NCBI GenBank assembly: GCA_030539285.1
Contig: JAUNSH010000024.1
Coordinates: 1-40,497, forward strand
Length of the DNA stretch: 40,497 nt
From: Eubacteriales bacterium
GTDB taxonomy: Bacteria > Bacillota > Clostridia > Oscillospirales > Oscillospiraceae
Reading direction: 5' to 3'
Shown here: one piece after another, positions 14,196 through 38,807 of the stretch
Position numbering within the stretch: position 1 is the stretch's first letter
Layout: the number at the start of each line of letters is the position of its first letter
Position numbers and translations under genes: made by a program
Notes under the pieces: model-generated
Told to the model about the DNA's origin: nothing
The model's input: only the letters and a program-made list of their open reading frames with translations
The model's database searches: none

Positions 14196-16327
14196 TATAG
14201 ATAGCACAGCTTCGCGCCGGGGGCAAAGGTTCGGGGTGTCACGATGGTGTCAAACTGGACGATCACGCCCTCCCGGTCTCTGGGAACGCCAATGACGGTG
14301 CCCTCACCGAAAACCGGGTGGCTCACCCGTTTTCCTGTGGGATCTTCCGATGCCGGTTTTTCCGACAGTTCCGTATGGGAAACCTGCTGCTTCGTTCGCT
14401 CCATCAGCTCAGGATCCATGGGAAGGACATATTCCACATTTTCCGCTTCCGCGTTGAACAGAAATCGGCTGGGGCTGCGGAAGGAGCCGTCGTAATTGCT
14501 GCCGGAGGCGTCGGACAGGAACAGTCTGTCCTCTGCCCGGGTGAAGGCCACATAGCACAGCCGCCGTTCCTCCTCAAGCTTTTCCCGGGTATTGGCCCGT
14601 TTGCCGGGGAAGATCCCCTCGGAAAAGCCGCACAGGAACACCACCGGGAACTCCAGGCCCTTGGCGGCGTGAATGGTCATCAGCTTCACCGCCTGGGCCT
14701 TTTCCGTCTGATCCATGTTGGTGAACAGCGCCGCATGGTCGAGGTAATTACCTAAGGTTACCTCCTCCCCGGCCTTTCCGGCGAAGTCGTAAATCGCCTG
14801 CTTCAGCTCCGCCAGGTTGTCCAGCCGCTCCTCTTCTCCGCTGGCCCGGAGCATATCCTCATAGCCGCTCTCATTTAAGATGCCCGCCAGCAGGTCTGTC
14901 AGATCCATGCCATCGTAGATCGCCCGGTACTTTTCAATCAGGCGCACGTATTCCCGCGCCCGGCTACGGCGGAACAACTCTGTGTCCAGATTGGCGGTCA
15001 AAGCCTCGTACAGGCTGCAGCGGTTCAGCTGGGCGTACTCTTTCAAGGCGGCAATGCGGGTGCGGCCCACGCCCCGGCGCGGCTCGTTCACCGTGCGCAG
15101 GAAACTGATGTCATCACCGCTGTAGATCATGCGAAGATAACACAAAACATCCTTGATCTCCTTACGCTTATAGAACTCCACGCCGGAATAGAGAACGTAG
15201 GGTATCTTATTGCGGATCAGAGATTCCTCCACCGCCCGGGATACGTAGTGTGCCCGGTACAGCACCCCCATGGCCGAATAGGATATTCCGCCTTCATGGA
15301 GGGCACGCATATTCGCCGTGATCCAGTCCGCTTCCAGCTGGCTGGTTTTGCCGTGGAAATACAGGGGTTTTTTCCCGTCTGCCCGGACGGCGGTGAGCTG
15401 TTTTTTCAGGCGATTCCGATTTTTGTCGATAAGGGCATTGGAAGCCGCCAGCACCTGGGGCACGGAACGGTAGTTGGTGTTCAGGTAAATCGTTTTGGAC
15501 TGGGGATGGCGGCTCTCGAATTCCAGGATAAAATTCACGTCGGCTCCCCGCCAGGTGTAGATGGTCTGGTCCGGATCGCCAACGACAAACAGGTTTTTGT
15601 GGTAGCCGGACAGGATCTCCGCAAGGGCGTATTGATCCTTGTCGATATCCTGAAATTCATCCACCATGATGTATTCCAGCCGCCGCTGCCACTTTTCCCG
15701 AACTTCTTTGTCATGCTGCAAAATGTACAGGGCAAAGTACACCAGATCGTCAAAGTCCAGGCCATAGCATTTGCGCTGTTCATAAAAATAGCGGTACAGG
15801 ACTTTATCTTTCAGCATATTGGCAGAATCCGACAAAACCCGCAGCTGTTCCGGGTCACCGATCAGGGTCTTCACATATCCCCTGCCGCCCTTGCGCCAGC
15901 CGATGTGGTCCACCGCCTCCTTGATAGTCATTTCCCGGCTGGTGATGCCCAGATCCTCAAACACCCGGCGCAGAATGGATTCCTTATCCTCTTCGTCCAG
16001 CACAATGAAGGTCGTAGGATACTGGACAACATGGCAGTCCTCTTTCAGAAGTCCCACGCAAAAACCGTGGAACGTAGTGATCCTACCCAGATCCTGATCC
16101 GGCAGCTGGCGGCGGATGCGCTTTTTCATTTCCGCTGCGGCCTTATTGGTAAAGGTCACGCACAGGATATTGGCGGTGGAGATTCCAAGCATTTCTACCA
16201 GATACAGATACCGGGCCGTCAGGGTTTTTGTCTTTCCGGAACCGGCCCCGGCGACAACCCGGATATATCCTTCCGTGGTGATGGCCGCCTCTTTCTGCTG
16301 GGGGTTCAATTCTTCCAGATATGTCAT
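14195..16327 (-). CDS. UvrD/PcrA-type ATP-dependent DNA helicase
   Basis: A 710-residue superfamily 1A 3'-5' helicase. Motifs in order: Q-motif LNPQQKEA, Walker A VAGAGSGKT, TFTNKAAAEM, TFHGFC, LDFDDLVYFA, Walker B VDEFQDID, VGDPDQTIYTWRGAD, NYRS, MTIHAAKGLEFPVVFLCGF, and LCYVAFTRAEDRL. The C-terminal 50 residues (VSHPVFGEGTVIGVPRDREG) resemble the Tudor-like tail with which PcrA contacts RNA polymerase. The ATG at 16327 is chosen because AGGAGG lies 9 bases upstream; the open frame continues upstream without an RBS. It is probably PcrA or a close paralogue, and a gene symbol is withheld because only motifs were compared. Divergent from the aro operon; no clear promoter was found. Confidence 0.93.
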   Translation of the reverse strand: MTYLEELNPQQKEAAITTEGYIRVVAGAGSGKTKTLTARYLYLVEMLGISTANILCVTFTNKAAAEMKKRIRRQLPDQDLGRITTFHGFCVGLLKEDCHVVQYPTTFIVLDEEDKESILRRVFEDLGITSREMTIKEAVDHIGWRKGGRGYVKTLIGDPEQLRVLSDSANMLKDKVLYRYFYEQRKCYGLDFDDLVYFALYILQHDKEVREKWQRRLEYIMVDEFQDIDKDQYALAEILSGYHKNLFVVGDPDQTIYTWRGADVNFILEFESRHPQSKTIYLNTNYRSVPQVLAASNALIDKNRNRLKKQLTAVRADGKKPLYFHGKTSQLEADWITANMRALHEGGISYSAMGVLYRAHYVSRAVEESLIRNKIPYVLYSGVEFYKRKEIKDVLCYLRMIYSGDDISFLRTVNEPRRGVGRTRIAALKEYAQLNRCSLYEALTANLDTELFRRSRAREYVRLIEKYRAIYDGMDLTDLLAGILNESGYEDMLRASGEEERLDNLAELKQAIYDFAGKAGEEVTLGNYLDHAALFTNMDQTEKAQAVKLMTIHAAKGLEFPVVFLCGFSEGIFPGKRANTREKLEEERRLCYVAFTRAEDRLFLSDASGSNYDGSFRSPSRFLFNAEAENVEYVLPMDPELMERTKQQVSHTELSEKPASEDPTGKRVSHPVFGEGTVIGVPRDREGVIVQFDTIVTPRTFAPGAKLCYL

Positions 16328-16432
16328 ATACCCATGCCTCCTTTTGAATGTGAGAATAGCACGGCCGCAGTCCAATAAAACGGGTATGATTGAACCATCT
16401 GTCAAAATCAGCTTTTTCTCAACATTTTTCTC

Positions 16433-16461
16433 TTGCATAATTCCGCGAGTCATGGTATAAT
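16433..16461 (+). promoter_or_regulatory. Promoter of the aro operon
   Basis: TTGCAT (16433-16438), a 17-base spacer and TATAAT (16456-16461), with an extra TGG just before the -10. Expected transcription start is about 16468, giving a leader of roughly 190 bases before aroF. Confidence 0.85.
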
Positions 16462-16493
16462 GTCCGCAGCTAAGGGACTTGGAGGTACTTTCC

Positions 16494-16562
16494 ATGGTTC
16501 AGGTATGTACTGTCAGCGCTTTCTTTTATCGCTACTATTACTTTTTTCATCTGAAAAAGTAA
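16494..16562 (+). CDS. Phe/Tyr-rich leader peptide of the aro operon
   Basis: A 22-codon reading frame with ATG at 16494, GGAGG at 16481-16485 with 8-base spacing, and stop TAA at 16560. The peptide contains the run AFFYRYYYFFH, so 8 of 9 consecutive codons (16521-16547) are Phe or Tyr. This is the hallmark of a ribosome-stalling leader peptide controlling Phe/Tyr synthesis. The Phe/Tyr codons coincide with the 5' arm of the first leader hairpin, and the stop codon lies in that hairpin's 3' arm. Confidence 0.88.
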   Translation: MVQVCTVSAFFYRYYYFFHLKK

Positions 16563-16645
16563 TAGCGATTTGTGCTGCAACGAATCCCAAGGCAAAATCA
16601 AGTATTTGAGCGCCGCACGAATTGCCCGTGCGGCGCTTATTTTTT
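16528..16645 (+). promoter_or_regulatory. Transcription attenuator of the aro operon
   Basis: Three competing structures can be drawn. (1) A protector hairpin at 16528-16569: ATCGCTA and TTACTTTTT, with a 3-base CTA bulge between them, pair with AAAAAGTAA and TAGCGAT. (2) An antiterminator: 16565-16578 pairs with 16612-16625, 13 of 14 positions including two wobbles. (3) A terminator at 16609-16637. Structure 2 excludes both 1 and 3. A ribosome stalled at the Phe/Tyr codons opens structure 1 and frees the antiterminator strand. A ribosome reaching the stop codon covers that strand, so the terminator forms. No T-box motif is present. Confidence 0.85.
16609..16645 (+). terminator. Attenuator terminator
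   Basis: A perfect 11-bp GC-rich stem (AGCGCCGCACG / CGTGCGGCGCT, 7-base loop) runs directly into TTATTTTTT. It ends 15 bases before the aroF start codon and after the leader peptide. Confidence 0.9.
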
Positions 16646-16660
16646 AGGAGATGTAAAATT

Positions 16661-17662
16661 ATGATCGCGATACTGAAACCCGGCACCACCCCTCAACAGA
16701 CCCAGCATCTGGTAAGCTGGCTGAAAACCATGAACCTGGACGTCCACATTTCTCAGGGCGCGGAGGTCACCGTTCTGGGCCTGATCGGGGACACCAGCCG
16801 GGTGGATATGGACCTGCTGAAAAGTCTGGAAATGGTGGAGACGGTCAAGCGGGTCTCTGAACCCTTCAAGCAGGCAAACCGGAAGTTCCATCCCCAGGAC
16901 ACCATCGTTACCGTGGACAATGCCCGGATCGGCGGCGGCTATTTTGCCATGATCGCTGGCCCCTGCTCCGTGGAGTCCGAGGAACAGATCATTGAAGTGG
17001 CTCAGGCAGTCAAAGCTTCCGGTGCCACCATGCTCCGGGGCGGCGCTTTCAAGCCCCGCACCTCTCCCTATGCCTTCCAGGGCATGAAGGGCGAGGGCAT
17101 CCAGCTGCTGCTGAAAGCCAAGGAAGCCACGGGCCTGCCCATCGTGACGGAGCTGATGAACATTTCCACCCTCGACCTGTTCGCGGATGTGGATGTCATT
17201 CAGGTTGGCGCGCGGAATATGCAGAATTTTGACCTTCTGAAGGAGCTGGGCAAAACCAAGAAGCCCATCCTGCTGAAACGAGGACTGGCCAACACCATTC
17301 AGGAGCTGCTCATGAGCGCGGAATACATCATGAGCGAGGGCAATGAAAACGTCATCCTCTGTGAGCGGGGCATCCGCACCTTTGAGACTGCCACCCGCAA
17401 TACTCTTGACCTGTCCGCCGTGGCGGTGCTGCACAATCTGACCCACCTGCCGGTCGTCGTCGATCCCAGCCACGCCACGGGCAGGGCCGATCTGGTAGCC
17501 CCCATGGCCTTCGCCGCCGCTGCGGCCGGTGCCGACGGCATCATGGTGGAGGTGCACAACAATCCCGCCTGCGCCCTGTGCGACGGCGCTCAGTCCCTGA
17601 CCCCGCCCCAGTTCGACGAGCTGAGCCGGAAAGTACAGAAGATTCGTGAGGTTCTGGTATGA
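16661..17662 (+). CDS. aroF: 3-deoxy-7-phosphoheptulonate (DAHP) synthase
   Basis: Condenses phosphoenolpyruvate and erythrose 4-phosphate, the entry step of the shikimate pathway. It has 333 residues. Residues 1-75 form a ferredoxin-like domain ([15 protein letters not shown]...) of the kind found in Thermotoga-type DAHP synthases, where it gives feedback control by aromatic amino acids. The barrel carries [61 protein letters not shown] and [11 protein letters not shown]. The ATG at 16661 has AGGAG 10 bases upstream; the upstream extension of the frame lies inside the attenuator terminator and is not used. First structural gene of the aro operon, overlapping tyrA by ATGA. Confidence 0.97.
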
Positions 17663-18489
17663 ATGTAGGTATTCTGGGTCTTGGTCTGATCGGCGGCTCC
17701 CTTGCCCGAGCCTACGCGCTGGAGGGACACACTGTCTACGCGATTCAAAGAAATGAGGCCATGCTGTCTTTCGCCATGCTGGCAGGCGCGGTGCACGGGA
17801 AATTGGATGAAGAGACCATTCCCAAATGCGACCTGATCCTGCTGGCTATCTATCCTGACGGCAGCGCCTCCTGGCTGGAAAAGAACGCCCACCTGATCTC
17901 CAAAGACGCTTTGGTGCTCGATTGCTGCGGCGTGAAGCAGGAGATCTGCAATCGCTGCTTCCCTGTGGCGGCGCAATACGGCTTCACCTTTGTGGGCGGC
18001 CACCCCATGGCCGGCTCCCAGTTCTCCGGTTTCAAGTACAGCCGGGCCAATCTGTTTGACGGCGCGCCCATGGTGCTGGTGCCCCCGGTATTTGACGATA
18101 TTGCTCTATTACAGCGGGTCAAGGATGCCTTGAAGCCCTGTCATTTCGGCCTCTTCTCCGTAACCACGGCGGAAGAACACGACAAGATGATCGCCTTTAC
18201 CTCCCAGATGCCCCACATTCTGAGCAACGCTTTCATCAAATCCCCCACCGCACTCAAGCACAAGGGCTTCTCGGCGGGCAGCTACAAGGATCTGACCCGG
18301 GTGGCGTGGCTGAATCCCCAGATGTGGGCGGAGCTGTTCCTGGAAAACCGGGATAACGTTCTGTTTGAACTGGACTACTATATCGAGAGCCTGAAGCAGT
18401 ACCAGCAGGCCATCCGGGACAAGGATATGGACAAGCTGGTGGAGCTTCTGGACGAGGGCAAAAAGCGAAAGGAAGAGGTGGACGGATGA
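17659..18489 (+). CDS. tyrA: Prephenate dehydrogenase
   Basis: Oxidatively decarboxylates prephenate to 4-hydroxyphenylpyruvate, the committed step to tyrosine. It has 276 residues: an N-terminal Rossmann domain with GILGLGLIGGSLARAY, then CCGVKQEI, GGHPMAGSQFSGF and the alpha-helical dimerisation domain with AFTSQMPHILSNAF and YKDLTRVA. There is no ACT domain or fused chorismate mutase, so tyrosine feedback probably acts elsewhere (the aroF-product N-terminal domain and the leader attenuator). An arogenate preference cannot be excluded from sequence alone. The start overlaps the aroF stop (ATGA), and its own stop overlaps the aroB start in the same way. Confidence 0.94.
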   Translation: MNVGILGLGLIGGSLARAYALEGHTVYAIQRNEAMLSFAMLAGAVHGKLDEETIPKCDLILLAIYPDGSASWLEKNAHLISKDALVLDCCGVKQEICNRCFPVAAQYGFTFVGGHPMAGSQFSGFKYSRANLFDGAPMVLVPPVFDDIALLQRVKDALKPCHFGLFSVTTAEEHDKMIAFTSQMPHILSNAFIKSPTALKHKGFSAGSYKDLTRVAWLNPQMWAELFLENRDNVLFELDYYIESLKQYQQAIRDKDMDKLVELLDEGKKRKEEVDG

Positions 18490-19520
18490 ATACCGTGACT
18501 GTCAGCGCATCCAAAACCTATGACATTCTCATTGGCAGCGGCCTGCTGCCTGCGCTTGGGGAGCAGGTGAAAAAGCTGGGCAAGGCCCAGAAAATCTGCG
18601 TGGTCAGTGAATCCACCGTGTTTCCCCTGTACGGAAAAGCGGTCACGGAGAGTCTGGAAAGTGCCGGATTTTCTGTGGTGAATTTCGTTTTTCCCGCCGG
18701 TGAGGAAAGTAAAAACGGCTCCGTTTTTCTGGAGCTTCTGAATTTTCTGGCCCAAAGCGGTCTGACCCGCTCCGATCTCATCGTCGCTCTGGGCGGCGGC
18801 GTTACAGGCGACCTGGCCGGGTTCGCGGCGGCCTGCTTCCTGCGGGGCATCCGCTTTGTTCAGGTGCCCACCACCCTGTTGGCTGCGGTGGATTCCTCGG
18901 TGGGCGGCAAAACCGCCATTGACCTGCCCGCAGGCAAAAATCTGGCCGGGGCCTTCTGCCAGCCCAGTCTGGTGCTGTGCGATACCGACACCCTGAATAC
19001 CCTGCCCGCCGATATTTTCCGGGACGGCTGCGCCGAGGTCATCAAGTATGGCATTCTCTACGACCCCGTGCTGTTTGCCCATCTGGAAGAAAAAGGGCTT
19101 TCCTTTGACCGGGAAGCCGTCATTACCCGGTGCGTGGAATTAAAGCGGGATGTGGTCGTGGAAGACGAATTCGATACCGGGGCGCGGATGAAGCTGAATC
19201 TGGGCCACACCATTGGACACGGCGTGGAGGCAAAAAGCAATTTCACCCTGTCCCACGGCAAGTCCGTCGCCATCGGCATGGCCATCGTCAGCCGGGCCTG
19301 CGGCTGTCCCGATACTCCGCGAATTCTGGCAATTTTGCAGCAGTTCGGACTTCCCACCACTACAGATGACACTGCCGATGAGATCCTTTCCTATGCGCTG
19401 TCCGACAAAAAGCGCTCCGGCGATCTGGTGAAGCTGATCCTTCCCAACGCCATTGGCGACTGTGCCATCATGCCAACCCCGGTAGGAAAACTGAAATCCT
19501 TTATTCAGGCAGGACTATAA
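18486..19520 (+). CDS. aroB: 3-dehydroquinate synthase
   Basis: Cyclises DAHP to 3-dehydroquinate using NAD and a divalent metal, the second step of the pathway. It has 344 residues, normal length. Visible motifs: PAGEESKNGS, the NAD-binding ALGGGVTGDLAGFAAA, RGIRFVQVPTTLLAAVDSSVGGKTAIDLPAGKN (given here in two parts: RGIRFVQVPTTLLAAVDSS and VGGKTAIDLPAGKN), the metal ligand Glu in GCAEVIKYG, and the histidines of LNLGHTIGHGVEA and SHGKSVAIGM. ATGA overlap with tyrA. It ends two bases before aroA. Confidence 0.97.
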   Translation: MNTVTVSASKTYDILIGSGLLPALGEQVKKLGKAQKICVVSESTVFPLYGKAVTESLESAGFSVVNFVFPAGEESKNGSVFLELLNFLAQSGLTRSDLIVALGGGVTGDLAGFAAACFLRGIRFVQVPTTLLAAVDSSVGGKTAIDLPAGKNLAGAFCQPSLVLCDTDTLNTLPADIFRDGCAEVIKYGILYDPVLFAHLEEKGLSFDREAVITRCVELKRDVVVEDEFDTGARMKLNLGHTIGHGVEAKSNFTLSHGKSVAIGMAIVSRACGCPDTPRILAILQQFGLPTTTDDTADEILSYALSDKKRSGDLVKLILPNAIGDCAIMPTPVGKLKSFIQAGL

Positions 19521-19522
19521 GT

Positions 19523-20713
19523 ATGGATATTACCATTCACCCCCGGTCTTTGCGGGGAGATGTTACAGTGATTCCTTCCAAATCTCAGGCCCATCGGCTG
19601 CTGATCTGCGCGGCCTTCGCGGATGGAACGACCATTCTGAACTGCCCGGAAACCAACCGGGATATGGACGCCACCGCCGGATGTCTCAATGCGTTAGGAG
19701 CAAATATTGTAAAAACGCAGACAGGCTATACGGTAGCTCCTGTACAGAAGATTCCTGAGAAAGCAGAACTCTATGTTCATGACAGCGGCTCAACCCTGCG
19801 TTTTATGCTGCCTGTCGCTGGGGCACTGGGCGTAGATGCCACGTTCCTGATGGAGGGCAGGCTTCCCCAGCGTCCCCTCTCTCCCATGTGGGAGGAGATG
19901 GAGCGGATGGGCTGCACCCTGACCCGCCCAACCGCCGACACCATTCGCTGTACCGAGAAACTACGTCCAGGGCATTACCGCATTGACGGCAGCGTTTCCA
20001 GCCAGTATATCACCGGCCTGCTGCTGGCTCTTTCCCTGCTGGATTCCCCCAGCAGGCTGGAAATTACCGGGCATGTGGAATCAAGGCCCTATATTCAAAT
20101 GACAAAAGACGCCGTCTCCCAGTTTGGCGCTGACCCGGAGTGCCCCGGCACACGGCGGTTCCATTCCCCGGGAAACCTGACCGTGGAAGGTGATTGGAGC
20201 AACGGCGCATTCTTCCTTGCCGCAAATGCGCTGGGAAGCGATCTCAACATTCGCGGCCTTAGGCAAGATTCTTCTCAGGGAGACCGTGCTGCCGCTGAAC
20301 TCCTGCCAAAGCTGTTAGAGAGTATACAGGTCATCGACGCCGGGGATATTCCCGATCTGGTGCCGATTCTGTCCGTGGCTGCCGCCTGCTGCCATGGTGC
20401 GGAATTTACCAACATCCGCCGGCTGCGGCTGAAGGAATCTGACCGGGTGGCTTCCGTTGTTGCCATGATCACGGCTTTGGGCGGGAAAGCGGAAGCGGAC
20501 GAAAACACCCTTCACATTTTCGGCACCGGCCTGACCGGGGGCACCGTGGACAGCGTCAACGATCACCGCATCGCCATGTCCGCTGCCATTGCCGCCACGG
20601 TCTGCAAAGAGCCGGTGACGATCCTTGGTGCGGATTGTGTCAAAAAATCCTATCCCAAATTCTTTGAGGAATACCGCCGGTTAGGAGGAGACTATGAGCA
20701 GTACCTACGGTGA
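19523..20713 (+). CDS. aroA: 3-phosphoshikimate 1-carboxyvinyltransferase (EPSP synthase)
   Basis: Transfers enolpyruvate from PEP to shikimate 3-phosphate. It has 396 residues, somewhat short for the family (about 420-430). Motifs: IPSKSQAHRLLI, the PEP-loop equivalent DSGSTLRFMLP, GRLPQRPLSP, SSQYITGLLLA, RLKESDRVA, and NDHRIAMSAAIAA. The SGSTLRF loop is the form common in clostridial enzymes, different from the NAGTAMRP of enterobacteria; glyphosate sensitivity cannot be predicted from this alone. The start lies two bases after the aroB stop. The 3' end overlaps aroC by 20 bases, and the aroC ribosome-binding site lies inside it. Confidence 0.96.
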   Translation: MDITIHPRSLRGDVTVIPSKSQAHRLLICAAFADGTTILNCPETNRDMDATAGCLNALGANIVKTQTGYTVAPVQKIPEKAELYVHDSGSTLRFMLPVAGALGVDATFLMEGRLPQRPLSPMWEEMERMGCTLTRPTADTIRCTEKLRPGHYRIDGSVSSQYITGLLLALSLLDSPSRLEITGHVESRPYIQMTKDAVSQFGADPECPGTRRFHSPGNLTVEGDWSNGAFFLAANALGSDLNIRGLRQDSSQGDRAAAELLPKLLESIQVIDAGDIPDLVPILSVAAACCHGAEFTNIRRLRLKESDRVASVVAMITALGGKAEADENTLHIFGTGLTGGTVDSVNDHRIAMSAAIAATVCKEPVTILGADCVKKSYPKFFEEYRRLGGDYEQYLR

Positions 20714-21785
20714 AAATTTAAAATTGACCATTTTTGGGCAGTCCCATGGGGCAGCCATCGGCATGACGCTGGATGGCATTCCGGCGGGGCTTCCTGTGGA
20801 TCTTGAGGAACTACAGACATTTCTGAACCGCCGCGCACCGGGGCAGAACAACTGGTCCACCCCCCGGAAGGAGGAGGACCGCCCGGAATTTCTGGCGGGT
20901 ATTCTGGATGGCTTTACCTGCGGCGCCCCCATTGCCGCTGTGATCCACAACACCAATACCCGCTCCGGGGACTACGCCAACCTGAAGGACTGTCCCCGTC
21001 CGGGTCACGCGGATTACACCGCTCAGATCAAGTACGGCGGCTTTCAGGACGCGGCGGGCGGCGGGCACTTCTCCGGGCGGCTGACAGCTCCCCTGTGCAT
21101 CGCGGGCGGGCTGTGCAAACAGTGGCTGGCGGAACGGGGCATCCGTATTGCGGCAAGAATTGCTGCTATTGCCGGAGTCGCCGATGATTTTGAAGTAGAT
21201 CCCCTGAATCCCCAGTTGGATTTGATTGGTACGGATTTTCCTGTGTTCTCTCTGGATGCCGGGGCGCGGATGCGGGAGAAAATCGCCGAAGCGAGGATGG
21301 AATGTGACAGCGTGGGCGGCATCATCGAATGCTATATCACCGGACTGCCTGCCGGTCTGGGAGAGCCAATATTTGGCGGCGTGGAAAGCCGGATCGCGCA
21401 GATCGTGTATGGTGTCCCCGCTGTGAAATCGGTGGAATTTGGCGTAGGCCGGGAAGGTGCCAGTCTGCGCGGAAGCCAGTGCAACGATGCCTTTACTGTC
21501 GAAAATGGTCACATCTCTACACTGACCAACAATGCCGGCGGTATCTTAGGCGGCATTACCAACGGGATGCCCGTTATTTTCCGGGCTGCCATCAAGCCCA
21601 CGCCGTCCATTTCCCGGCCCCAGCAGAGTGTTTCCCTGAGTAAGGCACAGGAACAGGAATTGATCGTAAAAGGCCGGCACGATCCCTGCATCGTCCCCAG
21701 AGCGGTACCAGTTATCGAGGCAGCGGCAGCCATCGCCCTATTCGACCTGATTTTGGGAAACACCCAGACAGACAGGAGGAAATAA
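20694..21785 (+). CDS. aroC: Chorismate synthase
   Basis: Catalyses the FMNH2-dependent anti-1,4-elimination of phosphate from EPSP to give chorismate, the last step of the common pathway. It has 363 residues. Signatures seen: GQSHGAAIGMTLDGIPAGL, RPGHADYT with KYG following, DAAGGGHFSGRLTAP, AGARMREKI, and the C-terminal GRHDPCIVPRAVPVIEA. The ATG at 20694 has an excellent TTAGGAGGAGACT upstream, inside aroA. The gene ends five bases before pheA, and AGGAGG at its own 3' end serves as the pheA RBS. Confidence 0.97.
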   Translation: MSSTYGENLKLTIFGQSHGAAIGMTLDGIPAGLPVDLEELQTFLNRRAPGQNNWSTPRKEEDRPEFLAGILDGFTCGAPIAAVIHNTNTRSGDYANLKDCPRPGHADYTAQIKYGGFQDAAGGGHFSGRLTAPLCIAGGLCKQWLAERGIRIAARIAAIAGVADDFEVDPLNPQLDLIGTDFPVFSLDAGARMREKIAEARMECDSVGGIIECYITGLPAGLGEPIFGGVESRIAQIVYGVPAVKSVEFGVGREGASLRGSQCNDAFTVENGHISTLTNNAGGILGGITNGMPVIFRAAIKPTPSISRPQQSVSLSKAQEQELIVKGRHDPCIVPRAVPVIEAAAAIALFDLILGNTQTDRRK

Positions 21786-21789
21786 CGTC

Positions 21790-22932
21790 ATGGATTTATC
21801 AGAGATCCGCCAGCAGATCGACGGGATCGATCAGGAGCTGGTACGGCTGTTCTGCCAGCGGATGAATCTGTCCGCGCAGGTGGCCGACTACAAAAAAGCC
21901 AACAATCTGCCGATTTTTGTCCCCGCCCGGGAACGGGCCATCCTGCAGAAGGTGGCGGAAATGGCTGGCCCGGAGATGGAAAACTACACCCGAGTACTGT
22001 ACTCCATGCTCTTTGAGTTGAGCCGCAGCTACCAGAGTAAGCGCAACGGCGAAATGAGCGAATTGTATAAATCCATTTCCAAGGCCATTGAGGAAACACC
22101 CAAGCTGTTCCCCCAGGCCCCTATCGTAGCCTGTCAGGGTGTGGAGGGAGCTTATTCGCAAATTGCGTGCGAAAAAATCTTTAAAAGTCCCTTTATTATG
22201 TATTTTAAGAACTTCGACGGGGTCTTCAACGCCATTGAGCAGGGGATGTGCCAGTATGGCATTCTGCCCATCGAAAACTCCACGGCCGGCTCCGTCACCA
22301 AGGTCTATGATTTGATGATCCGGCACAATTTTTCCATCGTTCGCACCTTCCGGCTGAAGGTTGACCACAATCTGCTGGCCAATCCCGGCGCTTCCCTTGC
22401 CGATATCAAGACTATCTACTCCCACGAGCAGGCCATCAACCAGTGCAGCGACTTTCTTCGCGGTCTGCCCGGTGTGAACGTGGTTGCCGTGGAGAACACT
22501 GCGCTGGCCTCGGAAATGGTGGCAAAGTCCGGGCAGAAGGATGTTGCCGCCCTGTCCAGCCGCTCCTGCGCTGAACTCTACGGTCTGAGCTGTCTTGCTT
22601 CTTCCGTGCAGGACAAGGGCAACAACCGCACCCGGTTTATCTGCATCAGCAAAAATCTGGAAATCTATCCCGGTTCCGACAAAACCAGCATCATGATGGT
22701 CCTGCCCCATAAGCCCGGTGCGCTGTACAAGGTTCTGGCCCGACTGTATACCCTGGGCATCAACGTGACCAAGCTGGAATCCCGGCCCATCCCTGACCGG
22801 GAATTCGAATTCATGTTCTATTTCGATCTGGACACCTCCATCTATTCCGAGGAATATGTCCAGCTCATGTGCGAGCTGGACGAGCTGTGCGAGGAGTTCA
22901 AGTATCTGGGCAGCTATACCGAGGTGATTTGA
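21790..22932 (+). CDS. pheA: Bifunctional chorismate mutase / prephenate dehydratase
   Basis: A P-protein: residues 1-85 form an AroQ-class chorismate mutase (IRQQIDGIDQELVRLFCQR, YKKANNLPIFVPARE). Residues 110-285 form prephenate dehydratase (GVEGAYSQIACEKI, ILPIENSTAGSV, and the catalytic NRTRF). Residues 295-380 form an ACT domain with HKPGAL and LESRPIPDREFEF, the GAL and ESRP elements that bind phenylalanine for feedback inhibition. It has 380 residues. It makes prephenate for both tyrosine and phenylalanine branches, and the tyrA product depends on it because TyrA here has no mutase domain. Its stop TGA shares one base with the next start codon. Confidence 0.96.
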   Translation: MDLSEIRQQIDGIDQELVRLFCQRMNLSAQVADYKKANNLPIFVPARERAILQKVAEMAGPEMENYTRVLYSMLFELSRSYQSKRNGEMSELYKSISKAIEETPKLFPQAPIVACQGVEGAYSQIACEKIFKSPFIMYFKNFDGVFNAIEQGMCQYGILPIENSTAGSVTKVYDLMIRHNFSIVRTFRLKVDHNLLANPGASLADIKTIYSHEQAINQCSDFLRGLPGVNVVAVENTALASEMVAKSGQKDVAALSSRSCAELYGLSCLASSVQDKGNNRTRFICISKNLEIYPGSDKTSIMMVLPHKPGALYKVLARLYTLGINVTKLESRPIPDREFEFMFYFDLDTSIYSEEYVQLMCELDELCEEFKYLGSYTEVI

Positions 22933-24158
22933 TGAAGTGCGGTTTATTGGGGCGAAAGCTTGGTCACAGCTACTCCCCTCAGATTCATGGCCTGCTGGGG
23001 GATTATTCCTACGGGCTTTTTGAAAAAGAGCCGGAGCAGCTGGCTTCCTTTCTGAGAGATGGAGATTTTACCGGCATCAATGTGACCATTCCCTATAAAA
23101 AGGATGTCATTCCCTACCTGGATGAACTGTCCCCTGCCGCGCGGAAAATCGGTTCCGTGAACACCATCGTCCGCAGGGCAGACGGCAGTCTCTTTGGGCA
23201 CAATTCCGATTATTTTGGCTTTGTCTCTCTGGTCAAGCACAGCGGCATCGCCGTGGAGGGGAAAAAGGTTCTGGTGCTGGGCAGCGGCGGCACCTCCAAC
23301 ATGGTCGTGACAGCACTGAAGGATTTAGGAGCCATGCCTGTGGTCATTTCCCGCTCCGGGGAAAACAACTACGGGAATCTGCACCTTCACGCCGACGCGT
23401 CTGTCATTGTCAACGCCACTCCTGTAGGAATGTATCCCAATACCGGCGTCTCCCCCATCGATCTGAGCCGTTTCCCAAAGCTGGAGGGCGTTCTGGACGT
23501 GATCTACAATCCCGCGAAAACCAAGCTGCTGCTGGATGCCGAATCACTAGGGATCCCCCACAAAAACGGACTTTGGATGCTGGTGGCACAGGCGAAGGAA
23601 GCCTCCGAATACTTTACGGGGAAAAAGCTGCCGGATGACTGCATTGGAAAAATACACGGTATCTTGTCGCGGCAGATGAAAAATATCGTCCTCATTGGGA
23701 TGCCGGGCTGCGGGAAAAGCACCATTGGCTCCCTGCTGGCCCAAAAATTGGGGCGACAATTCGTGGATGCCGACGGAGAAATCATTCAGCTGGCCGGGAA
23801 ATCCATTCCTGATATCTTTGCTCAGGATGGTGAAGAAATCTTCCGTCAATGGGAAACAACCGCTCTGGAAAGCTTAGGTAAGCAGTCCGGACTGGTGATT
23901 GCCACCGGCGGCGGCTGCGTGACCCAAGGACGCAACTACCCTGCTCTCCATCAGAACGGAAACATCGTCTGGCTGGAACGGGACCTGTCCCTGCTGCCAA
24001 CAGACGGACGGCCCCTGTCTCAGGCAAACCGCTTGGGGGAAATGTACACAGTTCGGAAGCCTATGTATGAAGCCTTTGCGGATATTCGGGTGGAAAACTC
24101 CGGAAGTCCGGAACAGACTATCAAAGAAATTTTGTCGCAGCTGGAGGAATTGTCATGA
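22932..24158 (+). CDS. aroE: Fused shikimate dehydrogenase / shikimate kinase
   Basis: One 408-residue polypeptide carries two pathway steps. Residues 1-245 are AroE: GLLGRKLGHSYSPQIH (substrate serines), NVTIPYKK with the catalytic lysine at 56, GSVNTIV, HNSDYFGF with Asp93, the NADP loop LGSGGTSNM, and NATPVGMYPN. Residues 250-408 are AroK: Walker A IGMPGCGKST (256-264), FVDADGEI, ATGGGCV, LERDLSLL, and DGRPLSQANR. No stop or frameshift separates the parts; the linker is only a few residues. The ATG at 22932 shares its A with the pheA stop codon. The longer open frame upstream lies inside pheA and is ignored. The kinase half could be named aroK. Confidence 0.95.
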   Translation: MKCGLLGRKLGHSYSPQIHGLLGDYSYGLFEKEPEQLASFLRDGDFTGINVTIPYKKDVIPYLDELSPAARKIGSVNTIVRRADGSLFGHNSDYFGFVSLVKHSGIAVEGKKVLVLGSGGTSNMVVTALKDLGAMPVVISRSGENNYGNLHLHADASVIVNATPVGMYPNTGVSPIDLSRFPKLEGVLDVIYNPAKTKLLLDAESLGIPHKNGLWMLVAQAKEASEYFTGKKLPDDCIGKIHGILSRQMKNIVLIGMPGCGKSTIGSLLAQKLGRQFVDADGEIIQLAGKSIPDIFAQDGEEIFRQWETTALESLGKQSGLVIATGGGCVTQGRNYPALHQNGNIVWLERDLSLLPTDGRPLSQANRLGEMYTVRKPMYEAFADIRVENSGSPEQTIKEILSQLEELS

Positions 24159-24586
24159 AAATTCTGGTGATCAACGGTCCCAATCTGAATATGCTGGGCA
24201 TCCGGGAACCGGGGATCTACGGCAGGAACACCTTTGCCGATCTGCTGGCCCTGCTGGAAGAAACGGGCAAAGAACTGGGCGTAGAGGTCGAGCAGTATCA
24301 GTCCAACCACGAGGGAGATATCGTGGACAAGATCCAGTGGGCATTCGGAAAGATCGATGGAATCGTCATCAACCCCGCCGCCTACACCCACACTTCTGTG
24401 GCTATCTTGGACGCGCTTAAGGCGGTATCCATCCCCGCTGTGGAGGTACACATCTCCGATGTGGACGCACGGGAGCCTTTCCGGCAAATCTCCTACGCCG
24501 GGAAAGCCTGCGTAAAGACCATCAAGGGTCACGGCTTTCAGGGCTACCGGGAAGCCATGCAGTACCTTGTGGAACAATACCGATAA
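24155..24586 (+). CDS. aroQ: 3-dehydroquinate dehydratase, type II
   Basis: Dehydrates 3-dehydroquinate to 3-dehydroshikimate by the type II (dodecameric, enolate) route. It has 143 residues, the family norm. Motifs: ILVINGPNLNMLGIREPGIYG, which includes the catalytic tyrosine, EQYQSNHEGDIVD, INPAAYTHTSVAI, and VEVHISDVDAREPFR. With this gene all seven steps to chorismate are in the operon. Start overlaps the preceding stop as ATGA. It is the last gene before a strong terminator. Confidence 0.97.
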   Translation: MKILVINGPNLNMLGIREPGIYGRNTFADLLALLEETGKELGVEVEQYQSNHEGDIVDKIQWAFGKIDGIVINPAAYTHTSVAILDALKAVSIPAVEVHISDVDAREPFRQISYAGKACVKTIKGHGFQGYREAMQYLVEQYR

Positions 24587-31028: not shown

Positions 31029-32291
31029 TCAGAATATTTTTCTGGCACACGCCACGATTTTTTCAATTTCCTCGTCGGTGTGGGCATTGCACAGGAACAT
31101 GGCCTCAAACTGGCTGGGAGCGGCGTAGATGCCCTGCTCCAGCAGTCCCAGATACCAGCGGCGGAACTGCTCCAGATCCGAGGAGCGGGCCGCTTCATAA
31201 CCAGTAACGGGCTTATCCGTGAAGAACACAGTCAGCAGGGAACCAACCCGGTTCACCTGCGCTGGAATGCCGGACAGGGCTTCTTTCAGTCCCTTTTCCA
31301 GCATAGCGCCCCTGCGTTCCAGATTTTCGTAGATTTCCGGCGTAGACTTCAGGATCCGCAGCTGGGCAAGGCCAGCCGCCATGGCCACCGGGTTGCCGGA
31401 CAGGGTGCCCGCCTGATAGACAGGACCGAGGGGAGCTACCTGCTCCATCAGCTGAACGCTGCCGCCATAAGCGCCGACAGGCATACCACCGCCGATGATC
31501 TTACCGTAGGTCACCAGATCTGCCCGGACACCGAAATATTCCTGCGCACCGCCGGGAGCCAGACGGAAGCCGGTGATAACCTCGTCGAAAATCAGCAGCG
31601 CACCGCTTTCGTCGCAGAGCCTGCGCAGACCCTGCAAAAAGCCAGGCCGGGGAGGGACAACACCCATATTGGCGGCTACCGGCTCCACGATCACTGCAGC
31701 CACCTGACCGGGATTGGCTCTCAGCAGAGCTTCCACGCTGCTTAAGTCATTGTAATTCGCCGTCAAGGTATCCCCGGCGATTTCAGTAGGGACACCAGCG
31801 GAATCCGGGGCACCGCCGGTCAATGCGCCGGAACCGGCCTTCACCAGCATGGAATCGGAGTGTCCGTGATAGCAGCCCGCGAATTTGATGATCTTGCTTC
31901 TGCCCGTAGCACCGCGGGCCAGCCGCAGAGCGGACATCACCGCCTCGGTGCCGGAATTGACCATGCGCACCATTTCGATGCCGGTCATTTCGCACACCAG
32001 CTGGGCCATGTCCACCTCCGCCGCCGTAGGCGCACCGAAGCTCAGGCCCTTGCGGATGGCTTCGCTGACAGCCTGCTCCACCGCTTCACAGCAGTGGCCC
32101 AGGATCAGCGGACCCCAGGAGCCAATAAGGTCGATGTATTCCTTGCCGTCCACGTCCCAGACGTGGCTTCCAAGGCCCCGGTCCAGAAACCGGGGATAGG
32201 TGCCCACGCTGCGGCAAGCCCGGACGGGAGAGTTCACGCCGCCGGGCATGATCTTCTGAGCCGCTTCAAACAGCTGTTCCGAACGTGTCAT
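31029..32291 (-). CDS. hemL: Glutamate-1-semialdehyde 2,1-aminomutase
   Basis: PLP enzyme that converts glutamate 1-semialdehyde to 5-aminolevulinate in the C5 pathway. It has 420 residues, the normal length. Motifs: MPGGVNSPVRA, NSGTEAVMSALRLAR, FAGCYHGHSDSML, IFDEVITGFR, and the PLP lysine at 264 in YGKIIGGGMPVGA. The ATG at 32291 shares one base with the hemB stop (TAATG). The frame is open further upstream within hemB, without an RBS. It supplies precursor to the other enzymes of the operon. Confidence 0.97.
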   Translation of the reverse strand: MTRSEQLFEAAQKIMPGGVNSPVRACRSVGTYPRFLDRGLGSHVWDVDGKEYIDLIGSWGPLILGHCCEAVEQAVSEAIRKGLSFGAPTAAEVDMAQLVCEMTGIEMVRMVNSGTEAVMSALRLARGATGRSKIIKFAGCYHGHSDSMLVKAGSGALTGGAPDSAGVPTEIAGDTLTANYNDLSSVEALLRANPGQVAAVIVEPVAANMGVVPPRPGFLQGLRRLCDESGALLIFDEVITGFRLAPGGAQEYFGVRADLVTYGKIIGGGMPVGAYGGSVQLMEQVAPLGPVYQAGTLSGNPVAMAAGLAQLRILKSTPEIYENLERRGAMLEKGLKEALSGIPAQVNRVGSLLTVFFTDKPVTGYEAARSSDLEQFRRWYLGLLEQGIYAAPSQFEAMFLCNAHTDEEIEKIVACARKIF

Positions 32292-33274
32292 TAACCCAAC
32301 TCCCCCTGTTTCATGGCCTGGGCCAGCTCCTTGGCGTAATAGGTAATGAGGATGTCCGCGCCCGCCCGGAAAATGGACAGTGCGCTTTCGCACATGACCC
32401 GGTGCTCGTCGATCAGTCCAGCCTTTCCCGCCGCCTTGATCATGGCATACTCGCCGCTGACAGAGTAGGCCGCCATGGGCAGGTCAAAGGCATCGGAGCA
32501 CTCTCGAATAATGTCCAGGTAGCTCAGGGCAGGCTTGACCATCAGAATATCCGCGCCCTCTTCCACATCCAGCGCACACTCCTTCAGAGCCTCCCGGCGG
32601 TTGTGGGGATCCATCTGATAGCCCCGGCGGTCGCCGAAGGCCGGGGCGGAACCGGCAGCGTCCCGGAAAGGACCGTAGAAGGCGGAAGCGTACTTGGCGG
32701 AATAGGACATAATGGGCACATTTTTGAAGCCGTTGTCGTCCAGTTCCCGGCGAATTGCGGCAATTCGGCCATCCATCATATCGGAAGGAGCAACCATATC
32801 GGCCCCCGCCTGAACATGAGACAGAGCAGTCTTTGCCAGCACCCGCAGAGTTTCGTCGTTGTCCACCTCATGGTCGTGCAAGATTCCGCAGTGTCCGTGA
32901 TCGGTGTACTCACACATACACACGTCGGTGATCACATAGCAGTCAGAGTACTTTGCCTTGATGGCCCGGATGCCCTGCTGGACAACGCCGTTGGGGTCCC
33001 AGGCAGAGGAGCCGCAGGCATCCTTATGGGCAGGGATGCCAAACAGCAGCACCCGCTTGACACCGGATGCCATACATTCCTCGATCTCCTCACAGACCCG
33101 GTCGGGAGAATAGCGCCACTGGCCGTCCAGCGAGGGGATGGGCTCCCGGATATTCTCCCCCTCGATGAGAAACAGGGGGTAGATCAGACTGTCCGGGGAT
33201 ACCCGGGTCTCCCGCACCATGCGGCGCAGGGTGTCGCAGGTGCGAAGCCTGCGGGGACGAATGGTTAAATCCAT
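32291..33274 (-). CDS. hemB: Porphobilinogen synthase (5-aminolevulinate dehydratase)
   Basis: Condenses two 5-aminolevulinate molecules to porphobilinogen. It has 327 residues. It is a zinc-type enzyme, with Cys119, Cys121 and Cys129 in DVCMCEYTDHGHCG. The Schiff-base lysines are Lys194 (MSYSAKYASAFYGPF) and Lys247 (MVKPAL). These positions match the E. coli enzyme almost exactly. The start is one base after the cobA/hemD stop, with AAAGGAG upstream. Confidence 0.97.
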   Translation of the reverse strand: MDLTIRPRRLRTCDTLRRMVRETRVSPDSLIYPLFLIEGENIREPIPSLDGQWRYSPDRVCEEIEECMASGVKRVLLFGIPAHKDACGSSAWDPNGVVQQGIRAIKAKYSDCYVITDVCMCEYTDHGHCGILHDHEVDNDETLRVLAKTALSHVQAGADMVAPSDMMDGRIAAIRRELDDNGFKNVPIMSYSAKYASAFYGPFRDAAGSAPAFGDRRGYQMDPHNRREALKECALDVEEGADILMVKPALSYLDIIRECSDAFDLPMAAYSVSGEYAMIKAAGKAGLIDEHRVMCESALSIFRAGADILITYYAKELAQAMKQGELG

Positions 33275-33275
33275 G

Positions 33276-34757
33276 TTAACACACTCCTTTGATGCACTCG
33301 ATCAGGGATTCCATGGTGGCCTTTTCGGCAATTCGAATGGGGATCCCGTATTTTTCGGCTTCTGCCGCGGTCTGTCTGCCAATGCAGCAGCCCAGCATTT
33401 TGGAAAAGTCCGTATCCGGCAGGCTCTTTACAAAGCCCCGAACCGTTGACGCGCTGGTAAAGGTGACGATGGCTCCTGCCTCGACCAGTTCCTTTACTGG
33501 CGTGGAATTGGGCGCTTCATAGACCGTATCATAGCAGGCAATATCCGCAAAGGGAATTCCCTTCGCCGTAAACAGGTTCGGCAGAGCATCGCTGCCCTCA
33601 CTGGCACGGCACAGCAGCACCGGGCCTTCCACCTGAGACATCGCCTGTGCAAGGTGGTCGGAATCATAGGTTTCTGGTATCAAATCCACAAAAATTCCGA
33701 ATTTTTCTAGTTCAGCCGCAGTCTTTGGGCCAATAGCCGCGATTTTCAGATTCGACAAGGCTCTTGCGTCCTTATGCTGCTTCCGAAGATGCCGGAAGAA
33801 AATTTCCGGGCCCGCAGGACTGGTGAATGCCAGCCAGCAATAGTCAGACAGTTTCTCAACCGCTTCATCCAGTTCCGGGTCGTCCTCCCGTTCCACCGTG
33901 CGGATGCAGGGATAGGCGGTGACGCTGGCCCCCAGCGCACTGAGTTTGCCGCACAGGGAGCCGTTCCGCTCCGCCGGGCGGGTGACAATGATCTCCCGGC
34001 CCTTGAGGGGCAGGCTATCAAACCAGTCAAAGCTGGAAGACAGAGCGCACACTTTCCCCACCACAATGATGGCAGGGCTGACGATTTCTGCCTCTTCCGC
34101 CGCTTGCGGCAGTCTTTCGAGGGTGGACACCACCTTGCGCTGACGGGGCAGGGTTCCCCGCTCGATGACAGCGGCAGGCATGTCCCCCTCCATCCCGGCA
34201 TCCAGCAGGCCCTTGCAGATCAGGGGCAGGGCTGTGACGCCCATCAGAAACACCAGTGTACCTCTCGTCCGCCGCAGAGCATCAAAATCAATTTGCAGCT
34301 CCGCCCCGGCCCTGGCGTGTCCTGTGATAATATGGACAGAGGAACAGTAGTCCCGGTGGGTCACCGGGATCCCGGCGTAAGCGGGCACCGACAGAGCTGA
34401 GGTCACACCGGGCACCTCCTGGAAAGGAATTCCATGCTCCTTCAGCAGTTCCAGCTCCTCGCCGCCCCGGCCAAACAGGAAGGGGTCACCGCCCTTCAAG
34501 CGCACGACACGCTTGCCCTCCTGGGCTTTTTCCAGCAGGATCTGATTGATCCGATACTGGGGCACAGGGTGCCTGCTGGCCTGCTTACCAACGTCAATTT
34601 TTTCGGCTTTCTCCGGGATCAGGCTCAGAATTTCCGGGCCGACAAGACGGTCAAAGACCACGACCTCCGCTTGTTTCAGGGCTTCCAGTCCCTTCCGGGT
34701 CAAAAGGCCCGGATCACCAGGGCCTGCGCCTACCAAAATCACATTTCCTGTGCTCAT
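33276..34757 (-). CDS. Fused uroporphyrinogen-III C-methyltransferase / uroporphyrinogen-III synthase
   Basis: One 493-residue protein with two activities (CobA plus HemD). Residues 1-250 form the SAM-dependent methyltransferase: VGAGPGDPGLLTRKGL, VVRLKGGDPFLFGRGGEE, PGVTSALSVPAYAGIPVTHR and MGVTALP. It makes precorrin-2 from uroporphyrinogen III. Residues 255-493 form HemD: GREIIVTRPAERNGSLC, AFTSPAGPEIFF, IAAIGPKTAAELEKFG and VTFTSASTVRGF, which closes hydroxymethylbilane to uroporphyrinogen III. Having both on one chain channels flux toward siroheme and cobalamin. The ATG at 34757 overlaps the hemC stop (ATGA); GTG at 34763 is a less likely start. Confidence 0.95.
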   Translation of the reverse strand: MSTGNVILVGAGPGDPGLLTRKGLEALKQAEVVVFDRLVGPEILSLIPEKAEKIDVGKQASRHPVPQYRINQILLEKAQEGKRVVRLKGGDPFLFGRGGEELELLKEHGIPFQEVPGVTSALSVPAYAGIPVTHRDYCSSVHIITGHARAGAELQIDFDALRRTRGTLVFLMGVTALPLICKGLLDAGMEGDMPAAVIERGTLPRQRKVVSTLERLPQAAEEAEIVSPAIIVVGKVCALSSSFDWFDSLPLKGREIIVTRPAERNGSLCGKLSALGASVTAYPCIRTVEREDDPELDEAVEKLSDYCWLAFTSPAGPEIFFRHLRKQHKDARALSNLKIAAIGPKTAAELEKFGIFVDLIPETYDSDHLAQAMSQVEGPVLLCRASEGSDALPNLFTAKGIPFADIACYDTVYEAPNSTPVKELVEAGAIVTFTSASTVRGFVKSLPDTDFSKMLGCCIGRQTAAEAEKYGIPIRIAEKATMESLIECIKGVC

Positions 34758-35635
34758 TGACACTCCCCCTCTCTCAGCTGCCGGGCCAGGGTCGCGCCTA
34801 GCATTTCCGCTTCCGCCGTGCTGCCGCGGATGCTGCCTTTACGCTGAATCTCCTCGTCAGGGCTGACATAAAAGCCCGTCAGCGTCAGCACATCTCCCTC
34901 CGCGGTGGCATGGGCTGCAACAGGGGAGCTGCATCCGCCGTTCAATGCCCGCACAAAAGCACGCTCCGCCCTGGCGCAGCAGGCCGTTTTCTCCTCGTGC
35001 ACCAGCCGCAGACACGCCGTGTCCATCCCCTTCCGGGTCTGCACCACCAGAATGCCCTGTCCGGCGGCGGGCAGGATCTCTTCTGTCGTAAAATAACGGC
35101 TGATGCGGTTTTCCAGTCCCAGACGTTTCAGACCCGCTGCCGCCAAAACCAGCGCAGAAAACTGCCCCGCTTCCAGTTTCGCAAGCCGGGTCTGGACATT
35201 GCCCCGCACGGGTTCGATATCCATATCCGGGAACAATTTCTTTAACTGCAATTGTCTGCGCCGGGAGGAACAGCCGATGGGTTTCGAGGGATTCAATTCG
35301 GTCGCACCCTCCGGCAGTACCAGCACATCCCGGGGGTCTTCCCGGCCGGAAAAGGCTGTAAGCGGCAGATCCTCCGGCACCTCCATAGGCATGTCTTTCA
35401 GGGAATGAACGGTAAAATCTGCCCGCCCGTCCCGAAGCGCCTGATCCAATTCCCGGACGAACAGACCCTTTCCGCCGATTTTGTCCAAAGTTTTGTCAAG
35501 TATTTTATCGCCGGTGGTCTTCATGGTCACCAGTTCCAGTTCCGCCGCCGGTTCTGCCTTTGCGATCAACTCCATTACCATTTGGCTTTGGATGACAGCC
35601 AGCCGGCTTTCCCGGCTTCCAATGCGCAGCTTCAT
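34754..35635 (-). CDS. hemC: Hydroxymethylbilane synthase (porphobilinogen deaminase)
   Basis: Polymerises four porphobilinogens to hydroxymethylbilane. It has 293 residues. Motifs: IGSRESRLAVIQSQ, HSLKDMP with the catalytic Asp81, GCSSRRRQLQL, RGNVQTRL, and LNGGCSSPVAA with Cys235 that carries the dipyrromethane cofactor. The ATG at 35635 overlaps the hemA/met8 stop (ATGA). The open frame extends upstream within that gene but without an RBS. Confidence 0.97.
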   Translation of the reverse strand: MKLRIGSRESRLAVIQSQMVMELIAKAEPAAELELVTMKTTGDKILDKTLDKIGGKGLFVRELDQALRDGRADFTVHSLKDMPMEVPEDLPLTAFSGREDPRDVLVLPEGATELNPSKPIGCSSRRRQLQLKKLFPDMDIEPVRGNVQTRLAKLEAGQFSALVLAAAGLKRLGLENRISRYFTTEEILPAAGQGILVVQTRKGMDTACLRLVHEEKTACCARAERAFVRALNGGCSSPVAAHATAEGDVLTLTGFYVSPDEEIQRKGSIRGSTAEAEMLGATLARQLREGECQ

Positions 35636-38510: not shown

Positions 38511-38555
38511 TGTTTTCTCTCCTGTGCGCGCATCCGCGTTATTTTGCGGCTGTCC

Positions 38556-38580
38556 AAAAAAAGACAGCCCAACGGCTGCC
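38556..38580 (-). terminator. Riboswitch expression-platform terminator
   Basis: Minus strand: GGCAGCC, loop GTTG, GGCTGTC (7 bp with one G-U) runs directly into seven T residues (38562-38556), between the riboswitch and cbiK/L. An upstream GGCTGC (38628-38623), just 3' of the aptamer, could pair with the GCAGCC arm as an antiterminator, and a downstream GACAGCC could pair with the other arm. Confidence 0.75.
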
Positions 38581-38638
38581 CGGCAAAAGGACGGTTCGTC
38601 CCATTCCCGGAGACTGATCACCGCAGCCCGGAAAAGTA

Positions 38639-38790
38639 GATTCTGGCAGGTATCCTGACTTCAGATCACAGCTGACACACCTTCTCAGAATCAAATTCCA
38701 ATGGATCTTGTGCTTCGCTCCCTGTTACAGTGACGGGTTCGTTCCGGACTTGCACCGGATTCCCTATTCTCCTTGCGGATACCAGAATCC
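38639..38790 (-). promoter_or_regulatory. Cobalamin (adenosylcobalamin) riboswitch
   Basis: On the minus strand the aptamer is closed by an 8-bp P1 stem (GATTCTGG at 38789-38782, CCAGAATC at 38646-38639). Inside are the conserved GGTGCAAGTCCGGAACG core, the CCCGTCACTGTAA segment, and the 3' B12 box GTCAGGATACCTGCC (38659-38645). Binding of cobalamin is expected to switch off the downstream tetrapyrrole/corrinoid operon, with a terminator visible between the aptamer and cbiK/L. Together with the promoter and dapA hairpins it fills the 387-base gap between the two divergent genes. Confidence 0.95.
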
Positions 38791-38807
38791 TTCCTGTTTC
38801 TTTGTAT

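Follow-up and report, generated by a model that had tools for sequence, protein, structure and literature searches.

A probable Phe/Tyr leader-peptide attenuator before the shikimate operon of an Oscillospiraceae bacterium, and similar leaders in other Clostridia

Results

Organization of the Aromatic Operon and Its Leader

The window, that is, the whole stretch of 40,497 nucleotides analysed here, carries an eight-gene operon in which domain families cover all seven steps of the shikimate pathway plus the branch enzymes encoded by tyrA and pheA (Table 1). No Trp-branch genes were found among these eight, and the presence of both Tyr and Phe branch enzymes was counted in favour of an attenuator sensing Phe and Tyr. 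Upstream of aroF, family search identified a gene for a UvrD-like helicase in divergent orientation, and the interval between the two genes contains a promoter and a GGAGG sequence, after which come an ORF of 22 codons, a long hairpin, a terminator with six T behind it, and finally the aroF ribosome site. The Phe/Tyr leader located here by the initial annotation was read directly in the window sequence; its peptide, MVQVCTVSAFFYRYYYFFHLKK, includes no Trp codon, and the ORF stands upstream of the operon with a ribosome site of its own, its translation being predicted from the sequence reading.

The same annotation had claimed a promoter and a set of mutually exclusive structures. These structures were present and conserved in the genus, and the region 16470-16648 folded with a z score of -4.96, with none of 200 shuffled sequences as good. 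The two strands of the antiterminator (strands 2 and 3 in Table 1) pair at 13 of 14 positions, the sole mismatch opposing 16576 and 16614. As for the promoter, a generic scan of the leader region reported none; nevertheless, a TTGCAT-17-TATAAT arrangement is readable there, and 69 of the 75 genus loci have kept this form, the spacer being 17 nt long in 68 and the TG extension present in 67.

At a separate site in the window, a cobalamin riboswitch (38628-38801, minus strand) precedes genes at 31029-38621 on the same strand, encoding, in this order, a fusion of CbiK cobalt chelatase and tetrapyrrole methylase, GlutR, porphobilinogen deaminase, a TP_methylase-HEM4 fusion, ALAD, and a class-III aminotransferase. 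The segment 31029-38801 looks like a B12-controlled tetrapyrrole operon.

Table 1. Position of the leader elements and of the operon genes in the window.
Feature	Position	Strand	Details
Promoter	16433..16461	+	TTGCAT 16433-16438, 17 nt, TATAAT 16456-16461, TG extension (extended -10)
Leader ribosome binding site GGAGG	16481..16485	+	8 nt before ATG; similar sites in alignment of relatives
Leader peptide ORF, 22 codons	16494..16562	+	ATG 16494, stop UAA 16560-16562
Regulatory Phe/Tyr codons (FFYRYYYFF)	16521..16547	+	8 of 9 codons Phe/Tyr
Upper protector hairpin	16528..16569	+	16535-16546 with 16554-16565, extended by 16528-16531 with 16566-16569
Lower protector helix (predicted fold)	16514..16577	+	16514-16519 with 16572-16577; direct competitor of antiterminator
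Strand 2, antiterminator 5' strand, GCGATTTGTGCTGC	16565..16578	+	core GTGYTGY in 75/75 genus loci
Strand 3, antiterminator 3' strand	16612..16625	+	within terminator 5' arm and loop
Intrinsic terminator (predicted)	16607..16645	+	16607-16639 plus T-tract to 16645; -24.4 kcal/mol
aroF, DAHP synthase, first operon gene	16661..17662	+	PF00793, PF18152
tyrA, prephenate dehydrogenase	17659..18489	+	PF02153, PF20463
aroB, 3-dehydroquinate synthase	18486..19520	+	PF01761
aroA, EPSP synthase	19523..20713	+	PF00275
aroC, chorismate synthase	20694..21785	+	PF01264
pheA, chorismate mutase-prephenate dehydratase	21790..22932	+	PF01817, PF00800
aroE-aroK, shikimate dehydrogenase fused to shikimate kinase	22932..24158	+	PF08501 and PF01202, one frame
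aroQ, type II dehydroquinase	24155..24586	+	PF01220

Conservation of the Leader Peptide within the Genus

An aroF match was obtained in 77 genomes of the genus and in the genome under study; one locus at a contig end (L061) was dropped, and two partial ones (G035, G042) were left out. The leader was present in 75 of the 77 readable aroF loci, corresponding to 72 of the genus genomes, the genome under study, and two named MAG records assigned to the genus by 97-98% aroF identity, although these genus sequences are related and the 75 loci are not independent cases. When the 300 nt preceding aroF were scanned for short ORFs with seven or more Phe/Tyr per 12 codons, all 75 loci counted gave one, compared with none of their 75 reverse complements and 0.7% of 1500 shuffled sequences. 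In addition, none of five other amino acid pairs reached six per 12 codons in the genus or order loci.

The two remaining genus loci, L084 and L107, have readable upstream DNA and no Phe/Tyr leader before aroF. A sequence resembling a promoter and a hairpin resembling a terminator stand before aroF in L084 (positions 350-640), without the Phe/Tyr leader, and this locus is perhaps a case of natural loss. The aroF of L107 is only 63% identical, and the ORFs that precede it (L277) are presumably ATP synthase genes.

The run of end-product codons is conserved as codons. At the three codons located 5' of the main protector stem, 62, 66, and 74 of the 75 loci specify Phe or Tyr; the full set of four Phe/Tyr codons is in use at one of these positions and three of the four at each of the remaining two, with interchange between Phe and Tyr. 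The codons flanking the run show no such conservation in these loci. The retention of Phe/Tyr codons in relatives, proposed at the outset as a check on the attenuator, was borne out in this way, with residues kept while the codons vary. Further 3', the codons TAT, TAC, and TTT are near-fixed (75, 74, and 75 of 75 loci), and hairpin pairing also holds them; in one species, a change from Tyr to Ser within this part came with a matching change of the partner base. At least two Phe and at least two Tyr occur in the run of 75/75 genus, 56/63 order, and 22/24 class leaders, and two leaders of the order contain only Phe. The presence of both amino acids in each genus run is as dual sensing predicts.

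The leader stop is UAA in 75/75 genus loci, and the distance from its first base to the antiterminator core is 12 nt in 73 of them, the two exceptions having 16 and 19 nt. This fixed spacing agrees with the proposal of the initial annotation that the stop is placed so that a finishing ribosome would mask strand 2, a placement also backed by the masked folding described below.

Comparative Tests on the RNA Structures

Compensatory changes had been sought in all three stems, and they were found unevenly (alignments A1 and A2; L006 was left out of both and L043 out of A2). The terminator gave the clearest outcome: both partners have changed in 9 of its 11 pairs, and the covariation was 0.329 vs 0.177 in shuffled alignments, none of the 500 being as good. 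Ahead of aroF, an intrinsic terminator was present in 75/75 genus, 62/63 order, and 22/24 class leaders, against 9/225, 11/189, and 3/72 shuffled tails.

Of the eight pairs counted in the antiterminator, seven are present in between 65 and all 73 sequences, and two of these seven show a double change. Its own strands paired at -15.61 vs -14.28 kcal/mol for swapped ones, a mean cost of 1.3 kcal/mol that none of 5000 permutations (61 distinct pairs) matched, whereas a linker used as control gave no signal (2122/5000). By eye, part of the swap signal seems to come from pairing of the terminator loop with the variable 5' half of strand 2. The mismatch (columns 77 and 131 of A2, corresponding to 16576 and 16614) was unpaired in 73/73 aligned relatives, and a mismatch so strictly retained may adjust the antiterminator, keeping it from prevailing by default. 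Pair counts and swap test both indicate a second pairing that excludes the terminator; outside the genus, it was weaker in a simple scan, which at p 0.05 detected it in 67/75 genus, 28/62 order, and 13/22 class leaders, while a 3'-arm control reached that level in 13/75, 3/62, and 2/22, respectively.

The protector yielded the least covariation. The main stem of the upper hairpin is near-invariant, with 99.8% of cells paired over 11 counted pairs and a single compensatory change, and in this sense the upper protector annotated at 16528-16569 is conserved. However, the predicted protector reaches lower, through a helix (16514-16519 with 16572-16577) that overlaps the strand-2 core; for this helix, 250 of 5000 strand swaps were as good as the real set and 98 of 500 shuffles as well paired, so that swapping favours it marginally, while the pair counts speak against treating it as a covarying helix.

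For masked folding, the ribosome was assumed to cover 15 nt upstream and 14 nt downstream of the first codon base. With the polymerase at 16628, the antiterminator formed with a probability of 0.98-1.00 when the ribosome was stalled at any of the eight Phe/Tyr codons and of 0 when it had reached the stop; with no ribosome, the value was 0.48. Once the complete terminator had been transcribed, it won in every state folded, which means that the switch must be kinetic and that the usual kinetic coupling is needed.

Phe/Tyr Leaders outside the Genus

In order-level relatives, leaders with at least six Phe/Tyr per 12 codons were found before aroF in 63 of 94 loci (genome G120 being represented twice), compared with 2.6% of shuffles. 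In a class-level set chosen for diversity, 24 of 40 loci had such leaders; these loci represent 40 of 174 matching genomes outside the order, each family contributing one or two with the closest aroF proteins, so that 24/40 should not be taken as a class average. Altogether, Phe/Tyr leaders precede aroF in 42 of 60 sampled families, the own family counted once. In these distant loci, 420 nt upstream were scanned, and the shuffle rate was obtained on 300 nt; some leaders scoring six (e.g., L227, L088) may be due to chance, since 2.6% of shuffled order loci reach that score. Conversely, a Phe/Tyr ORF at -478 in L082 fell outside the scan and was counted as a miss, as was L225, with 99 upstream bases only.

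A strand-2 core of sequence TGTGYTGC was present in 15 of 87 non-genus leaders vs 15 of 4350 shuffles, and it was found in frames 0, 1, and 2 as well as after the stop. Its independence of the frame points to the RNA level and, as far as the sequences tell, hints at a common descent of the leaders; 72 of the 87 non-genus leaders lack TGTGYTGC, so that a repeated origin may apply instead.

Relatives with aroF but without the leader, named in the initial annotation as grounds for refutation, exist in part: to the two among 77 genus loci are added 47 of the 134 order and class loci, in which no Phe/Tyr leader was detected before aroF. Ten of these 47 belong to a single family (f23), several members of which have weaker ORFs with four or five Phe/Tyr; others come from the class families with the least similar aroF, yet some have a close one (L208, 71%). 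A T-box before aroF was found in one of 20 leaderless loci scanned, a class member (L237, positions 235-502), apparently a swap of the sensing system.

When 149 genomes were searched with an RNA model of the element (R1), the strong matches lay before aroF and came from the genus and from a few members of the order (G134, G100, G105); in the genome under study, at E 0.001, only the aroF site was recovered. Among 13 weaker matches examined, two (L264 and L265) proved to be aromatic leaders upstream of genes other than aroF, and the remaining ones look mostly like unrelated terminators. A five-codon Phe/Tyr pattern alone was useless as a leader finder, with 29 genome matches vs 36 for the reversed pattern.

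The leaders of L264 (533-604) and L265, both order members, contain YWRYFNFTFYGF and precede genes for a PALP-type enzyme and a sodium:solute symporter, gene families that were tested in L264 only; no aroF match was found in either genome. In other Clostridia, a leader encoding MFFYRYYYFFISAID (MFFYRYYYFF...) followed by a terminator lies before pheA-aroB, with no aroF between (L003, 5302-5349), and a similar one precedes a like gene, also with no aroF between (L004, 1026-1073). In the L003 leader, the terminator is present and the antiterminator candidate is weak (-7.9 kcal/mol).

Discussion

Taken from sequence comparisons, our results make it very probable that this element is a ribosome-mediated transcription attenuator sensing the charging of Phe-tRNA and Tyr-tRNA. 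Five of seven features that define an attenuator were found at the locus; the full protector is a candidate, with a conserved upper stem and a weakly backed lower helix, and the response to charging is a prediction. The parts themselves, their conservation, and their mutually exclusive pairings were observed in the sequences, and they suggest the following sequence of stalling, polymerase timing, and two-amino-acid response. RNA polymerase would transcribe the leader with a ribosome following behind. When Phe and Tyr are plentiful, the ribosome would reach the UAA at 16560 and cover the start of strand 2, leaving strand 3 free, so that the terminator would form and transcription would end before aroF. 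When either of them is short, the ribosome would stall in 16521-16547, covering the 5' side of the protector, and strand 2 could pair with strand 3 before the terminator is complete, allowing the operon to be read. Where translation is absent, the protector would partly hold strand 2.

The same features could be read in other ways. A nascent Phe/Tyr-rich peptide might stall the ribosome in the tunnel, for instance by binding a free amino acid, rather than for lack of charged tRNA, and the near-fixed TAT, TAC, and TTT codons (75, 74, and 75 of 75) would fit such an arrest peptide. However, these codons belong to the part paired in the protector, and 5' of them Phe and Tyr interchange and other residues vary; moreover, the order and class leaders share, by eye, no fixed sequence. 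Given this codon variation, an arrest peptide of fixed sequence is unlikely, and we regard the arrest mechanism as a whole as very improbable. Even less probable is that leader and hairpin act on aroF translation or RNA stability, or constitute a constitutive terminator. Once the leader has been transcribed in full, every folded state does favour the terminator, but a terminator with its T-tract stands before the aroF ribosome site, and the second pairing, which excludes that terminator, is conserved and passes the swap test.

Least credible of all is a T-box or another tRNA- or metabolite-binding riboswitch before aroF. Such elements do occur in the same genome, with 12 T-box matches, four of them above the cut-off, and the leaderless relative L237 has one before aroF. 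In the leader, by contrast, no Rfam family reached its gathering score, a covariance-model search with E up to 5 listed 13 matches and no T-box at 16200-16760, and what is conserved are codons, stop position, and terminator instead of an aptamer. On account of these negative searches, a T-box or other Rfam RNA at the leader was rejected. A search of 20 leader-bearing sources against Rfam returned no match except one tRNA.

Turning from these alternatives back to the attenuator, its distribution allows a broader scenario, which we hold to be neither favoured nor disfavoured: a Phe/Tyr attenuator with the strand-2 core TTGTGCTGC could be the ancestral aroF control in Clostridia, inherited class-wide and later lost or replaced (e.g., by a T-box) in some families, with a shortage of either amino acid opening the whole shikimate pathway. 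A two-amino-acid attenuator before aroF in 42 of 60 sampled families would help explain how many Clostridia control the synthesis of Phe and Tyr, and many unannotated short ORFs would gain a function. In addition, codon runs, stop distances, the conserved antiterminator mismatch, and one leaderless species offer natural variants for studies on tuning and replacement.

In textbooks, the control of aromatic amino acid genes in Firmicutes is usually attributed to T-boxes, TRAP, and repressors. The T-box leader (RF00230) senses uncharged tRNA and controls a terminator; in contrast, the leader described here gave no match to it, and its sensing would need a translated ORF. In enterobacteria, the pheA (pheL), trp, and his attenuators combine tandem codons for the product with protector, antiterminator, and terminator, and a stop that lets the ribosome mask strand 2. 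The present leader likewise has tandem codons for its products, antiterminator, terminator, and such a stop placement, together with a candidate protector. Unlike pheL, which is Phe-only and controls pheA, it carries Phe and Tyr codons before a whole shikimate, Tyr, and Phe operon. Attenuation across bacteria was reportedly treated by Lopatovskaya et al. in 2010.

Where the initial annotation saw an unusual switch, it should be added that leader-peptide attenuation already has precedents in Firmicutes and their kin: his, ilv-leu, and Acholeplasma aroF examples have been published. According to the accessible parts of these reports, leader attenuators were predicted for hisS/hisZ in bacilli (PMC2965389) and for his operons in the B. 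cereus group, Peptostreptococcaceae, and Erysipelotrichales (PMC9413887), and a Leu-rich attenuator of ilv-leu in S. aureus is backed by suppressor mutations (PMC5794164). As described there, they share mechanism and phylum with the leader studied here and concern other amino acids and operons. The mechanism is, in consequence, already known, including in Firmicutes, while the Phe plus Tyr specificity and the spread in Clostridia were not found described: in the literature covered, mostly open access, and in Rfam 15, no report of a Phe/Tyr leader before aroF in Clostridia was recognised. For Enterococcus faecium, the available text of another report speaks of a cis element before an aroFBC-tyrA operon (PMC4448216). 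The uORFC-13-1 motif, as presented in the accessible portion of its report, precedes aroF in 24 representatives, restricted to the genus Acholeplasma and environmental sequences, and its control is ascribed to the speed of Phe incorporation (PMC8632094). Compared by that description, both systems place a Phe-coding short ORF and an adjacent intrinsic terminator before aroF; that portion of the report does not list Tyr among the coded residues (PMC8632094), whereas the leader analysed here combines Phe and Tyr, occurs in other taxa, and has an identified antiterminator.
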